Shown: piece after piece, positions 2,104 to 56,006 of the stretch
Numbering within the stretch: the stretch's first letter is position 1
Layout of the letters: every line of letters starts with the position of its first letter
Source: Pirellula staleyi DSM 6068
GTDB taxonomy: Bacteria; Planctomycetota; Planctomycetia; Pirellulales; Pirellulaceae
DNA length: 64,000 nt
Direction of reading: 5' to 3'
Assembly (NCBI GenBank): GCA_945875845.1
Contig: CAMCMB010000035.1
Coordinates: forward strand, 1-64,000
Program-made: the position numbers and the translations under genes
Notes under the pieces: generated by a model
What the model was told of the DNA's origin: nothing
The model's input: the letters and a program-made list of their open reading frames with translations, nothing else
The model's database searches: none

Positions 2104-3714
2104 ATGGCCGATTCTCTCGAACAAGACAACACCGGTATAGGTGTCCATCAAGCAGCAAGGCTTGAAAAACTCAAGAAAATCGAAGCACTTGGCCTAGATC
2201 CATGGGGAGCTCGATTCGACAATCGGACGTTTGTCGGCCCGGTTCGTGAACTTGCAGCCCAAGTTCGATTCTGCAAAGAAGACGGTTCTGTGGTTGCGTT
2301 ACCTGATTTTCCGCCACCAATGGAAAAAGGGCAAAGTGACACTTCGGAGCTTCGTGCAGCCTTTGATTACAAGGCCTGGAAAGCCAGTCAGGGCCCGGGC
2401 GAAGAGGTTGGCCCAATCGTTCGTGTTGCGGGCCGGATCATGCTGCTCCGGACCGCAGGCAAGCTTTTCTTCTTGAACATTCGCGACTGGACAGGCGATA
2501 TCCAAATCATGATCGCCAAGGGCCATGTCCCAGACGAAGACTTCGATCTTGCGAAGCTTCTTGACTTTGGTGACCTCGTCGGTATTGATGGCCGCTTAGG
2601 CCGAACGAACACGGGCGAACTTACGGTGTTCGCCAGTAAACTGCATTTCATGACCAAGACGCTTGAGCCGCCACCGGAGAAGCACGCGGGGCTCCAAGAT
2701 GCCGAACTCCGCCAGCGAATGCGGTATGTCGATTTGACCTACAACACCGACTCGCTGCACACGTTTTTGAATAGGACGAAGATTGTTCACTCGATCCGAG
2801 CAACGCTGGCCAAACATCAGTTCGTCGAAGTGGAGGGTCCGACATTGCATACGATCGCGGGTGGTGCAGCCGCCCGCCCGTTCGTCACACACCACAATGC
2901 GCTCGACATGAAATTGTTCCTGCGAATCGCGCTCGAACTACACCTCAAGCGATTGCTGGTTGGCGGTATCGAGCGAGTGTATGAAATGGGACGAGTCTAT
3001 CGAAACGAAGGGATTAGTCCAAAACACAATCCCGAGTTCACGATGATCGAACTCTATTGGGCGTATGCCAATTACGAAACGATGATGGACCTGACGCAAC
3101 AAATCATCGTCGAAGCGATCGAGGCGACTGGCCAAGGCTACAAGCTGAAATGGGGTGACCTCGATATTGACTTCACTCCGCCATTCCAACGCAGAACGTA
3201 CAGCGATCTCTTCGAAGAGCACACGGGACTGAAAACCTCCGACAGCGAAGGAATCGCTCAACTCGCTCGAAGGCTCGGTATCGTAACGACAGGGAAACAC
3301 CCTGACGTGATCAAGAGCGAAGTCTTCGAAGAAAAAGTCGAGGACTCGCTCATCGGTCCAATCTTTGTCATCGACTACCCGGCAAGCATTTGTCCATTGA
3401 CCAAGCGAAAAGCCGGCAATCCGGATATTGCAGAAAGGTTCGAACTTTTTATTCATGGGATGGAATTGGCCAACGCGTACACCGAACTCAATGACCCGAT
3501 CCTTCAGGAAGAGTTGTTTAAGACGCAACTCGACGGCATGGAGGAAGAGGATTCCATGGCCAAGATGGACACCGATTTCGTTCGGGCTCTCCGGTACGGC
3601 ATGCCACCGGCCGGAGGTCTCGGGATTGGTATCGATCGACTGATTATGTTGCTAACGAATTCGCGCAGCATTCGCGACGTTGTTTTGTTCCCACTCATGC
3701 GCCACGAAAGCTAG
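2104..3714 (+). CDS. lysS: Lysyl-tRNA synthetase, class II
   Basis: Charges tRNA-Lys with lysine in the cytosol. The open frame extends upstream to 1987, but the ATG at 2104 (MADSLEQDN) gives a family-like N-terminus and a product of 536 residues; the upstream extension is not conserved in character. Residue numbers here count from that Met. An OB-fold anticodon-binding domain covers about 104-186. Class II motif 2 is RVYRNEG (about 297-303) followed by HNPEFTMIELY, and motif 3 is GGLGIGIDRL near 505-514. A 30-40 residue insertion rich in Pro/Glu precedes the OB fold, making it longer than the E. coli enzyme (about 505). ychF follows 15 bp downstream. Confidence 0.96.
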   Translation: MADSLEQDNTGIGVHQAARLEKLKKIEALGLDPWGARFDNRTFVGPVRELAAQVRFCKEDGSVVALPDFPPPMEKGQSDTSELRAAFDYKAWKASQGPGEEVGPIVRVAGRIMLLRTAGKLFFLNIRDWTGDIQIMIAKGHVPDEDFDLAKLLDFGDLVGIDGRLGRTNTGELTVFASKLHFMTKTLEPPPEKHAGLQDAELRQRMRYVDLTYNTDSLHTFLNRTKIVHSIRATLAKHQFVEVEGPTLHTIAGGAAARPFVTHHNALDMKLFLRIALELHLKRLLVGGIERVYEMGRVYRNEGISPKHNPEFTMIELYWAYANYETMMDLTQQIIVEAIEATGQGYKLKWGDLDIDFTPPFQRRTYSDLFEEHTGLKTSDSEGIAQLARRLGIVTTGKHPDVIKSEVFEEKVEDSLIGPIFVIDYPASICPLTKRKAGNPDIAERFELFIHGMELANAYTELNDPILQEELFKTQLDGMEEEDSMAKMDTDFVRALRYGMPPAGGLGIGIDRLIMLLTNSRSIRDVVLFPLMRHES

Positions 3715-12751: not shown

Positions 12752-12869
12752 CGGCTTGTTGATTTAATGGTACGACGGACTTCCAAGTCCGTCGAATTCC
12801 CCATTGCCGGACTTGGAAGTCCGCCTTACCGCCCTTACCCAATAACGACTTCACTAAATCAACAAGCCG
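12752..12869 (+). repeat. Dispersed inverted-repeat element, copy A
   Basis: Terminal arms CGGCTTGTTGATTTA (12752-12766) and TAAATCAACAAGCCG (12855-12869) are perfect 15-bp complements. Inside lie the GGTACGACGG strand, an ACGGACTTCCAAGTCCGT palindrome, a second GGACTTGGAAGTCC palindrome and the CTTACCCAATAACG tract shared with other copies. It follows the PaaK-like gene. A small CTTTCGC/GCGAAAG hairpin near 12694-12710 lies just before it. Confidence 0.85.
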
Positions 12870-14293: not shown

Positions 14294-14532
14294 AGTGGTG
14301 GTTTGACCTTCGCCCTAGCATGAAGGTAACGATCCCCTGGGATAAACCCAGGGGCATTCGATGCATGCCATCTGGCTTTATGCAAGTGGAGGTTTGACCT
14401 TCGCCCTAGCAGGAAGGCAACAATCCCCTGGGATAAACCCAGGGGCATTCGATGCATGCCATCTGGCTTTATGCCAGTGGAGGTTTGACCTTCGCCCTAG
14501 CAGGAAGGTAACAATCCCCTGGGATAAACCGG
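14294..14532 (+). repeat. 91-bp direct tandem repeat, about 2.6 copies
   Basis: The phrase GGTTTGACCTTCGCCCTAGC recurs at about 14300, 14391 and 14482, an exact 91-bp period. Each complete unit contains a CCCCTGGG-ATAAA-CCCAGGGG hairpin and ends with a GCATTCGATGCATGCC phrase. The third unit breaks off after its ATAAACC loop. Open frames read through it are by-products of the repeat. It fills most of the gap between two convergent genes. Confidence 0.9.
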
Positions 14533-53514: not shown

Positions 53515-53538
53515 GAACCATCCCACAAGGAATTCCAG

Positions 53539-55304
53539 CACTGACCTTGTGTCAGTGGGAGCAAGATTGAACAGCTAGAACGACAGCACCGAAACCACCG
53601 CTGCTTTCCATCGCATGAGCTCTCCATCGACCTTGCATCGATGGAAGCACGACTCGTTTAGCTGGTTGAGTCATTCCGTCCACTGACGCAAGGTCAGTGG
53701 GGCGGTGGACGTCGGTGTCTGTGATACGGAGTCTAGCTTATCCGTCATCGGTCCACCGACTCAAGGTCGGTGGAGCCGTCGAACCTTCAATGGGCCACAA
53801 CCGGGAGGGGCCACCCATCTATTTTTTGAGGCCTTTTTTGCGTTCGCTCGATTGGAATAGGTAGCGAACAGGGCCACCCCCAACTTGGCCGGCATGCCTA
53901 GATGGATGGCTCCGCGGGTACCCTAATTCGCTTGACGAAGTCGCACCCAAACTCGCCGGGCCACGCACCTGCGAGAGCCACCACTACAATGGCTCGACAA
54001 GCATAGATGGGTGGCTGCATGGGAAGACTTCTGAGCCAGCCGCGAAGCAGGCTGATTTTGCCCCTCATGACCTTGTGTCATGGGAAGCAAAGTTTGGTCG
54101 GCTAAGAATCCATCGCCGTGAGGCGGTTCGAGCCCCCTCATGACCTTGTGTCATGGGTCGCTCAAGTTTCTCACGTCGCCGAGCCAGGAAACTTTCTCAC
54201 CCATGTGGCAAGCACATGGGGGCCGTGACCGCTGCGCGGTTTTGGCTGGGTTTAGCTGACCAAACTTGCTGTCCAACGACACAAGGTCGTAGGGGCAGAG
54301 ACCGCTCGCTGCGCTGGCGTTGCATGTAAACAGCATCACTGAGCAAGCTGTCAGCTGGCTTGCGGATCACTCAGTCAGCTGGCTTGTCGATCACTCAGTC
54401 AGCTGGCTTGTGGATCACTGAGCAGCTGGCTTATCGATCATTGAGCCAGCCGCGAAGCAGGCTGATTTTGCCCCCCATGACCTTGTGTCATGGGAAGCAA
54501 AGTTTGGTCGGCTAACAATCCATCGCCGCGAAGCGGTTCGAGCCCCCTCATGACCTTGTGTCATGGGTCGCTCAAGTTTCTCACGTCGCCGAGCCAGGAA
54601 ACTTTCTCACCCATGTGGCAAGCACATGGGGGCCGAGACCGCTGCGCGGTTTGGCTGGGTTTAGCTGACCAAACTTGCTGTCCAACGACACAAGGTCGTT
54701 GGGGCAGAGACCGCTCGCTGCGCTTGCGTTGCATGCAAACAGCATCACTGAGCAAGCTGTCAGCTGGCTTGCGGATCACTCAGTCAGCTGGCTTGTCGAT
54801 CACTCAGTCAGCTGGCTTGTGGATCACTGAGCAGCTGGCTTATCGATCACTGAGCAGCCGCTTGTGGATCACTGAGCGACTGGCATCTCGATCACTGAGC
54901 AGCTGGCTTCTCGATCACTGAGTCAAGCCGCGAAGCAGGCTGGTTTTGCCCCTCATGACCTTGTGTCATGGGTCGCTCAAGTTTCTCACGTCGCCGAGCG
55001 AGGAAACTTTCTCACCCATGTGGCAAGCACATGGGGGCCGTGACCGCTGCGCGGTTTTGGCTGGGTTTAGCTGACCAAACTTGCTGTCCAACGACACAAG
55101 GTCGTAGGGGCAGGAGCGCTCGCTGCGCTTGCGTTGCATGCAAACAGCATCACTGAGCAAGCTGTCAGCTGGCTTGCGGATCACTCAGTCAGCTGGCTTG
55201 TGGATCACTGAGCAGCTGGCTTCTCGATCATTGAGTCAGCCGCGAAGCAGGCTGGTTTTGCCCCTCATGACCTTGTGTCATGAGAAGCAAAGTTTGGTCG
55301 GCTA
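53539..55304. repeat. Hairpin and satellite repeat array
   Basis: A non-coding array with three nested levels. (a) At least twelve short hairpins with core GAC-CTTGT-GTC or GAC-ACAAG-GTC and variable outer stems, e.g. 53539-53557, 53680-53700, 53752-53774, 54066-54082, 54273-54293, 54474-54494, 54682-54702, 55088-55108. (b) A 22-24 bp satellite GATCACTGAGCAGCTGGCTT in blocks at about 54340-54445, 54750-54925 and 55155-55235, with different copy numbers. (c) Higher-order units starting at GAGCCAGCCGCGAAGCAGG-type phrases at 54033, 54443, 54920 and 55233 (410, 477 and 313 bp long). It lies between the exported-protein gene and the truncated helicase gene. Long open frames inside it are repeat artefacts. 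Confidence 0.9.
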
Positions 55305-56006
55305 GGCGGTGGGCGTCCAAACGCACTGTTCTTCGCCGGAGACCTTGGGCAACGCATCTTTCAGCAGCCGTTTTCGTGGAAGTTCCTTGGCTTGGACATT
55401 CGCGGCCGCAGTCGTACTCTACGAGTGAACTACCGAACTTCGCATCAAATCCGCATGCAAGCCGATCGATTGCTCGGCCCAGCGGTGACCGATGTGGATG
55501 GGAACAACGAAGATCGAAGCGATACTGTTTCGGTATTCAACGGCCCGCCGCCAACGATTATATTACTCAAAAACGAACGCGAAGAGATCGAGACTGTCGC
55601 CGGTTGGATTGCAGAGCAAACGCGAGCAGGCGTCTTACCACATGAATTTGGATTGTTCGTACGTTCCTCTGCCCAACTCGATCGCGCCAAAGCTGCCGCC
55701 GAGCTCGCTAAAATGCCTTTCATTATTCTCGATGATGGCGTCGAGGGTGATTCTAGTCACCTTTCCATCAGTACGATGCATTTAGCCAAGGGGCTGGAGT
55801 TTCGTGCTGTGGCGGTGATTGCCTGCGACGATGAGATTATTCCATTGCAGGAGCGCATCGAAACGGTTGGCGATGACGCCGATTTGCAGGAGGTATACGA
55901 CACCGAACGGCAGTTGCTCTATGTTGCATGTACACGTGCAAGAGACAATTTGCTCGTGACCAGCGTAGAGCCTGCGTCTGAGTTCTTAGACGACATGCGA
56001 GTCTAG
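55305..56006 (+). pseudogene. UvrD-type helicase, 5'-truncated
   Basis: From about 55305 the frame reads RPNALFFAGDLGQRIFQQPF and continues to a stop at 56006 with helicase motif III-like GDLGQRI, motif V (STMHLAKGLEFR) and motif VI (LYVACTRARDNLL). The N-terminal half with Walker A and Walker B is missing; upstream is only repeat array. The sequence itself is free of stops over 233 codons, so the truncation looks recent or the fragment is still translated from an internal start (TTG 55392). The HNH gene overlaps its last 4 bp tail to tail. Originally a DNA-unwinding repair helicase of the UvrD/Rep superfamily. Confidence 0.85.

Follow-up and report, generated by a model that had tools for sequence, protein, structure and literature searches.

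Hairpins served by a transposase are known from REPtrons, in which dispersed repetitive extragenic palindromic (REP) sequences flank a gene for a Y1/HUH (His-U-His) enzyme and several hairpin subfamilies can accompany one gene (Quentin 2018, PMC6006769; PMC8266576). Published transposases of the IS200/IS605 family act as dimers and contact a base of the loop together with an unpaired or mismatched base of the stem (PMC8266576, PMC6006769), while TnpA_REP of Escherichia coli is a monomer (PMC6006769). Here we describe a family of short hairpins at 53.5-55.3 kb of a 64,000-nt window of Pirellula staleyi DSM 6068 (C35:1-64000 of a 7.01 Mb genome, G000, in 149 contigs), and a fused Y1-Y1 transposase gene, C5, encoded elsewhere in the same genome. 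We think it quite probable that the hairpins are REP-like, non-autonomous elements of single-stranded DNA served by this distinct HUH transposase.

A sequence-only reading of the locus had described at least twelve hairpins built as GAC-loop-GTC in both orientations. There are exactly 12 exact matches to GACCTTGNGTC, between 53,543-55,279, seven on the plus strand and five on the minus strand, with no mismatch-free match in the rest of the window; when one mismatch is allowed, the window holds 15 matches versus 4.25 in shuffles. The same reading held that the outer arms differ from copy to copy and stay complementary. All six arm pairs that it quoted are present, but the 8-bp stem is perfect in only 5 of the 12; the other seven pair at 7 of 8 positions, their faults being T-G (four), T-T (two) and an outermost G-G (one). 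Three additional related hairpins, CCCATGTG-CTTGC-CACATGGG (h4), start at 54200, 54610 and 55015 and bring the stretch to 15 hairpins of the same build. A covariance model recovers these same 15 at an expectation value (E) of 0.016 or below, the next matches in the window lying at 0.28 or above. Part of the variety between copies reflects four hairpin positions of one composite repeat, not independent changes of a single hairpin.

Across the genome, the GAC-CTTGN-GTC core occurs at 116 sites, compared with 12 for a reversed control pattern, and TGACCTTGTGTCA occurs 41 times, compared with 0 for its control. Several core copies lie at contig ends; these counts may therefore be low, and the repeats probably contribute to the breaks in the assembly. 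Pairing of the outer arms was scored at 98 unique sites among 103 listed; the other 13 of the 116, three at contig edges among them, lay outside the retrieved sequence or went unscored. At least four of the five outer pairs form at 80 of the 98 sites, whereas re-dealing the 3′ arms yields 31.2 on average and never more than 45. In 1.264 Mb, GAC-N5-GTC sites with a CTTGN loop reach this level in 23 of 25 cases and those with other loops in 8 of 244. The two outcomes that the sequence-only reading had named against itself, namely rarity of the motif outside the locus and mismatched outer stems as frequent as matched ones, were not what we found. Its fixed GAC/GTC core is indeed fixed within this genome; the three inner pairs vary elsewhere. 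In 26 further genomes from the genus, core sites number 4-37 compared with 3-19 for the control, mostly near the control value; the core stands above it in G016 (37 versus 13), G019 (29 versus 11), G014 (24 versus 7) and G021 (25 versus 12). Of this set and G000, strong amplification is seen only in G000.

The link to a transposase emerges from the distribution of Y1 genes. A search of the genome with the Pfam Y1_Tnp profile gave 19 matches in 17 places, and repeated hairpins of this build accompany three of these 17 genes: C5 (L063:3911-4702, encoding the 263-aa protein P0001), C13 (L073, encoding P0002) and C3 (L198), the third fused-Y1 gene of the genome. C5 and C13 sit within hairpin clusters. 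At the other 14 places there are no repeated hairpins, and four of them hold one or two unrepeated matches. A scan of named genomes yielded 62 loci with a homologous gene, whose record titles name Planctomycetes, Verrucomicrobia, Lentisphaerae, Kiritimatiellae and a few others. Hairpins with a C-YY-G-N loop and at least 7 of 8 pairs, counted within 1.5 kb of the gene, number 225 and occur in 52 of the 62 loci; 45 loci have two or more, and 39 have them on both sides of the gene. The association also holds between genomes. P0001 has matches in 19 of the 99 related genomes (G000 among them), and a profile search returns the same 19 and one genome that matches the C-terminal half only. With at most 62 covariance-model candidates scored per genome, so that high counts are lower bounds (at least 60 in G000), five or more hairpins occur in 17 of the 19 genomes with the gene versus 13 of the 80 without it (Fisher p 2.7e-9; medians 38 versus 0). 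Of the options that the sequence-only reading had offered, a single-strand DNA substrate is the one favoured by this link to HUH/Y1 genes.

Hairpin presence also appears to vary between orthologous stretches, judging by an empty-site comparison in which one flank each of clusters L288 (G009) and L289 (G019) was found in two other genomes. In three of these four comparisons (L293, L294 and L300), hairpins of this build are absent from the retrieved stretch past the aligned flank. Because the core is strongly amplified in G000 only and the clusters are missing from three of the four orthologous stretches, each aligned in part, a lineage-specific spread of the hairpins is suggested.

The 62 loci and the C5 locus together supply 237 hairpins, 199 of them perfect, with 47 distinct 5′ arms. 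Within 1.2 kb of the genes at the 62 loci there are 230 hairpins with a 5-nt loop, up to 13 around one gene (L248), compared with 8.3 in shuffles that moved two-base blocks and are not exact dinucleotide shuffles. What stays constant is an 8-bp stem, a loop of the form C-YY-G-N (or T-YY-A-N), a preceding CC and, often, a GCTA tag on the 3′ side. By column counts, the two preceding C residues occur in 89% and 81% of the hairpins, stem position 1 is C in 99%, the remaining stem positions vary, the loop reads C-Y-Y-G-Y, and an A directly follows the stem in 58%. Among the 230 hairpins, the leading loops are CTTGT (72), CTTGC (50), CTCGT (25) and CTCGC (22); an earlier rule that all loops are CTTGN was abandoned once T-YY-A-N loops were found. 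GCTA lies 16 or 17 nt past the stem in 104 of the 237, and nine more GCTA matches fall at other places in the 26-nt flank. Since loop positions 1 and 4 are complementary (C:G, or T:A in a minority; 28 CG and 2 UA for pair 14:17 of the alignment), they probably pair, which would leave two bases in the loop proper and a single extrahelical one; the latter is a pyrimidine in 232 of 237. Beyond the stem, an outer helix of at least 3 bp can form at 122 of 205 unique flanks (3-6 bp; fewer than 3 bp in the other 83), compared with 32.2 when the flanks are re-dealt (maximum 48), and in 105 of the 122 it is set off by a 2x1 internal loop (CC / A). When eight examples were folded as DNA, four formed an outer helix set off by an internal loop of 2x1 or 2x2; two of the eight fold barely better than shuffles (z -1.46 and -0.57).

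The letters of the stem are largely free provided that they pair. For example, the hairpins of the C13 gene have different stems (CCGATGGG, CCAGTCGG, CAGACGGG, CCCGCGAC) and unchanged CTTGN loops, and in a quick protein tree of 52 rows near relatives have common stems and distant ones mostly different stems, with C-C-Y-G as the main loop confined to members of one deep clade. To this can be added a selection of sites by CC, a C-YY-G-H loop and a GYTA tag, with no requirement for pairing: among 104 such sites, 75 pair at 8 of 8 positions and 12 at 7 of 8. Six control loops gave 36 sites, of which seven pair fully, all of them T-YY-A, and none of the other 29 reaches seven pairs. In a cross-species alignment (A6), changes on both sides of a pair occur at 8 of 9 pairs; both partners are changed in 70 cells and only one in 4, and 8 cells are unpaired. 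The covariation score is 0.713, compared with 0.210 after shuffling and 0.04-0.10 after sliding. A6 comprises 30 of 37 distinct arm pairs, all paired at 5 of 8 positions or better, so that its figure of 97% paired is partly due to choice. The outer helix covaries as well. The compensatory change that the sequence-only reading had proposed, and with it the maintenance of pairing, is thus borne out by the 87 of 104 sites that pair at seven or more positions and by the covariation between species.

The transposase has an unusual arrangement of its catalytic residues. It consists of two tandem Y1 domains, the first with the catalytic tyrosine (YIxxQ) and without HUH, the second with HUH and ending ahead of its tyrosine helix. 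Relatives are about 240-300 aa long, and the nearest to P0001 in the searched sets are about 45% identical, as P0002 is (45%). Both motifs were found by pattern in 50 of 55 proteins, with Y[ILV]xxQ before [DN]HxH in all 50 and a gap of about 90-100 residues (in L219 the first pattern match lies earlier). Y116, Q120, H207 and H209 are invariant in all 46 rows of an alignment (A4) made up of P0001, P0002 and 44 of the 51 stop-free proteins; four of the 55 have stops or frame ends. An AlphaFold model from 46 sequences (predicted local distance difference test, pLDDT, 94.8; predicted template modelling score, pTM, 0.92), which supersedes one from two sequences only (pLDDT 50.9), has two alpha/beta halves, the second of which lacks the final helix. 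Its top Foldseek matches are IS200/IS605 transposases, with alignments of 110-135 columns that span about half of the model and TM-scores, by target length, of 0.54-0.77. In a comparison with solved structures, the full profile aligns best through domain 2 with the transposases of Sulfolobus and ISDra2 (best E 1e-15) and through domain 1 with IS608 (E 1.3e-6). A domain-1 profile matches eight IS200/IS605 chains nearly full length (E 1.3e-5 to 0.0025), and in the three alignments shown the tyrosine helix is aligned and HUH is replaced. Scores against existing protein models stay below the cut-offs: 20.5 and 17 bits for NF047646 (cut-off 80), used in the comparison with REPtrons, and 44 and 45 bits for NF033573 (cut-off 55), used in that with IS200/IS605 TnpA.

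In IS200/IS605 transposases the active site is shared between two chains, in trans. Because the motifs are split between the two halves of the fused protein and the IS200/IS605 enzymes are dimers, we infer that the fused protein may be a pseudo-dimer with one composite active site, to which domain 1 would give the tyrosine and domain 2 the HUH motif. Four distant relatives (L187, L188, L195 and L198) have a longer C-terminus with, by eye, a tyrosine at about the corresponding site of domain 2, and their sequences would fit a duplication followed by loss.

How does this system compare with those already described? Its halves match IS200/IS605 TnpA (IS608, ISDra2, Sulfolobus) in sequence and its model matches in fold; the His-U-His, Tyr and Gln residues are all present, and a hairpin followed by a 3′ site resembles the right end of these elements. 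It differs in having one 263-aa chain with two unequal domains rather than a single domain of about 150 aa, and apparently in its many arrayed hairpins, where those elements have one left and one right end. With TnpA_Y1 class 3, known from Planctomycetes, Acidobacteria and Proteobacteria, it shares a host group; however, class 3 proteins have HuH, W and then Y (YV[VI]xEQ), are about 178 aa long and go with a 5′ foot CnGA (PMC6006769), whereas here Y lies about 90 residues ahead of HUH in a protein of about 260 aa. The GTAG- and CGTC-tagged REP superfamilies are likewise short tagged palindromes, the CGTC group with 8-9 bp stems and 4-5 nt loops and reportedly without a dedicated transposase, but their tag and its position differ from those found here (PMC3733652). 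The TTTA loop of a Marinomonas REP, whose complementary first and last bases may count as stem (PMC8266576), is comparable to the T-YY-A and C-YY-G loops, whose ends are also complementary. The system resembles REPtrons in its dispersed hairpins and their several subfamilies around one Y1/HUH gene. It differs in its foot, its stems and its enzyme. REPtron hairpins have a GT[AG]G foot, of which the GTAG form was scored here; it occurs in 0 of 237 hairpins, at the foot or up to 2 nt away and with both strands considered, GCTA lying instead 16-17 nt 3′ of the stem. Stems are far freer within one family. The transposase fuses two domains and has Y ahead of HUH, where REPtron enzymes have one Y1 domain in which HUH precedes Tyr. 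In its workings the system is like a REPtron, and it is set apart from REPtrons because neither the GTAG foot nor a single domain with that order of motifs is found.

The following scheme would account for these properties. The serving transposase would be P0001, with related products of the C13 and C3 genes, acting as a built-in dimer with a single composite active site. It would recognize one strand of the folded hairpin through bases of the loop and the internal loop, and cut near the tag, perhaps at the CT within GCTAG; E. coli TnpA_REP is reported to cut at CT 5′ or 3′ of its REP (PMC8266576). Cutting would copy or move the repeats. If shape and a few unpaired bases are what is read, the sequence of the stem could drift by paired changes.

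Three other explanations for the hairpins have to be considered. They might act as RNA, for example as mRNA stabilizers, terminators or small RNAs, with the transposase link being secondary. Covariation of this kind is what an RNA helix would show, and the element's own hairpins lie, by eye, mostly outside crude open frames; crude gene calls place 34 of 66 loosely defined CTTG hairpins within open frames, and by eye these are mostly chance matches. Moreover, G-T accounts for 11 of 30 non-Watson-Crick cells among 35 distinct stems, more than the random expectation of 1 in 6. This excess is not diagnostic of RNA, because seven A-C cells also occur among the sites selected without regard to pairing. 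Rfam gives no family at gathering score in the window, and an RNA role has no obvious explanation for the link to the transposase genes or for the peak of the tag at 16-17 nt; we regard it as unlikely. The arms could instead be kept symmetric by mutation, through hairpin-templated repair or gene conversion, in which case covariation would be uninformative on function. The preponderance in A6 of cells changed on both sides is in keeping with this, as are two array units that are 98% identical over 206-211 nt and that imply recent copying or conversion. Such a process would preserve neither the C-YY-G / T-YY-A loop nor the internal loop (CC / A) nor the peak of the tag, all of which are kept across many stems and several phyla, and we doubt that it is the explanation.

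It might also be argued that the variety within the window is mere descent, with four ancient hairpin positions copied in 405-bp units and now decaying without constraint. The differences in the window do lie mostly between positions A, B, h4 and C, and seven of the 12 GAC-core stems carry one mismatch. However, class B alone has CAT/ATG, CAC/GTG and CGC/GCG arms within this genome, and hairpins at L200 and L201 that share a 20-nt flank have CCAGTTGG/CCAACTGG versus CCAGTCGG/CCGACTGG, which amount to double changes. Mere descent also calls for mismatched stems to be as frequent as matched ones genome-wide, the opposite of the 80 in 98 found, and we consider it highly improbable.

Returning to the reading of the hairpins as REP-like elements served by the fused transposase, we note a number of observations that weigh against it. 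Ten of the 62 loci have no C-YY-G-N hairpin under the criterion used and seven have only one; of the ten, two have repeated T-YY-A-N hairpins, one has two with a CTTGG loop, and seven have none or a single odd match. Thirteen of the 80 genomes without a detected gene hold five or more hairpins, perhaps because the gene may have been lost or may be missing from a draft assembly, and within the genus the association is weaker (at least 10 hairpins in 11 of 12 genomes versus 6 of 15, p 0.014). None of the four orthologous comparisons gave a clean empty site, and in the fourth (L299), where the retrieved stretch stops next to the spot, the hairpin is common to both sequences, there with a 4-nt loop, CTTG. 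GCTA is missing at +16/+17 from 133 of 237 hairpins. Fully paired hairpins also occur with the control tags CGAT (6 of 19) and ATCG (1 of 7), though not with GAAT (0 of 1) or TCTA (0 of 2), so that some hairpins carry tags other than GYTA. Two of the five A6 measures are weak: the number of pairs changed on both sides is matched by 10 of 500 shuffles, and that of further pair types by 211 of 500. While the association with the genes, the conservation of shape, the tag peak and the split motifs can be read from the sequences themselves, strand-specific recognition, cutting near the tag, mobilization and the composite active site are what we infer from them.

Within the window, three isolated hairpins precede an array of about three 405-bp units at 54031-55240, delimited by the tandem-repeat program TRF and a repeat listing. 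The isolated hairpins are GCACTGAC-CTTGT-GTCAGTGG (53538-53558, plus strand; 7 of 8 pairs, downstream tag GCTAG, covariance-model E 1.2e-4), CCACTGAC-CTTGC-GTCAGTGG (53680-53700, minus strand; 8 of 8 pairs, E 1.9e-5) and CCACCGAC-CTTGA-GTCGGTGG (53753-53773, minus strand; 8 of 8 pairs, GCTAG, E 0.0012). Units 1 and 2 have hairpins A and B on the plus strand followed by h4 and C on the minus strand, spaced by about 63-73 nt. In unit 1, A (CTCATGAC-CTTGT-GTCATGGG, 54064-54084) has 7 of 8 pairs with one T-G and the tag GCTAA; B (CTCATGAC-CTTGT-GTCATGGG, 54137-54157) has a degenerate tag (E 0.016); h4 (54200-54220), which is new relative to the sequence-only reading, pairs fully; and C (CCTACGAC-CTTGT-GTCGTTGG, 54273-54293) has a T-T mismatch and GCTAA. 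In unit 2, A (CCCATGAC-CTTGT-GTCATGGG, 54474-54494; 8 of 8 pairs, GCTAA) folds as DNA into a structure whose outer helix has 5 bp and whose internal loop is 2x2, B (54547-54567) and h4 (54610-54630) are covariance-model matches, and C (CCAACGAC-CTTGT-GTCGTTGG, 54682-54702; 8 of 8 pairs, GCTAA) has the top model score in the window (48.2 bits) and folds with an outer helix of 3 bp and an internal loop of 2x1. Unit 3 consists of an A/B hybrid, flanked as A is on its 5′ side and as B is on its 3′ side (54952-54972, plus strand), h4 (55015-55035, minus strand) and C (55088-55108, minus strand; T-T mismatch), the last two being model matches. A last partial unit contributes A (CTCATGAC-CTTGT-GTCATGAG, 55264-55284, plus strand; 8 of 8 pairs), with a GCTAG tag at the end of the array.

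Between the hairpin units lie arrays of 23-24 bp tandem repeats (CAGCTGGCTTGTGGATCACTGAG and variants; 54350-54440, 54761-54931 and 55164-55240) that include CTTGT and in which no complementary arms were noticed. A perfect 13-bp inverted repeat, GCCACCCATCTAT (53810-53822 / 54003-54015, 180 nt apart), separates the isolated hairpins from the array, and a fragment that resembles the C-terminus of a UvrD/Rep-type helicase (55325-56006; open frame judged by eye) adjoins the array's end. Another hairpin family built in this way, CCCCTGGG-TTTAT-CCCAGGGG, occurs at 14334-14354 and 14425-14445, both on the minus strand with the tag GCTAG, in a 91-bp tandem repeat of 2.6 copies (14294-14530), and also flanks the C3 gene. 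A separate palindrome family, GACGGACT-TCC[AT]-AGTCCGTC, has 109 copies in 1.2 Mb of the genome, including window positions 12774, 20322, 20354, 26527, 26562, 32023 and 32055, often in pairs about 12 nt apart (aatggggaattc); no dedicated gene was found for it, and by eye its ends look like the CGTC tag of PMC3733652. Its membership in the family described here was ruled out by its fixed stem, its 4-nt loop and its presence at only 1 of 19 Y1 loci.

Some further observations concern the transposase loci. The C13-type transposase is near-identical in L073, L200 and L201, which belong to three separate species (G000, G016 and G014; end branches 0.012-0.023), and a recent transfer of it is possible on these sequences. 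In L073, duplicated stretches of GTCGGACGAGCAGGCAGA-like repeats flank the gene (about 1820-1940 and 3070-3210) and are accompanied by direct copies of its hairpins. Reading the open frames of L063 and L073 by eye brought no TnpB to notice; no TnpB search was made.

Our literature searches, which covered few subscription papers, returned no fused Y1-Y1 transposase and no C-YY-G-N hairpins beside such a gene. We lean slightly towards regarding the system as a new type of REPtron, present in planctomycetes, verrucomicrobia, lentisphaerae and kiritimatiellae, in which a fused Y1-Y1 transposase with divided catalytic residues, a one-site pseudo-dimer in place of the two-site dimer of IS200/IS605, would read its substrate almost purely by shape. 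That substrate would comprise a near-free 8-bp stem, a C:G/T:A mini-loop, an extrahelical pyrimidine, a 2x1 internal loop and a distant 3′ tag.

Finally, we consider what such a system offers. Integron attC sites are also read by shape. In the REP systems studied, the GTAG foot and the partly conserved stems blur the distinction between reading of sequence and reading of shape. Here, dozens of different stems conform to a single shape and a single loop rule, and each stands next to an enzyme of its own, so that recognition of folded single-stranded DNA by shape is directly testable, with the stem swaps supplied by evolution. The fused protein, with its divided catalytic residues, offers a natural way to ask whether one active site suffices for single-strand transposition or two are required.

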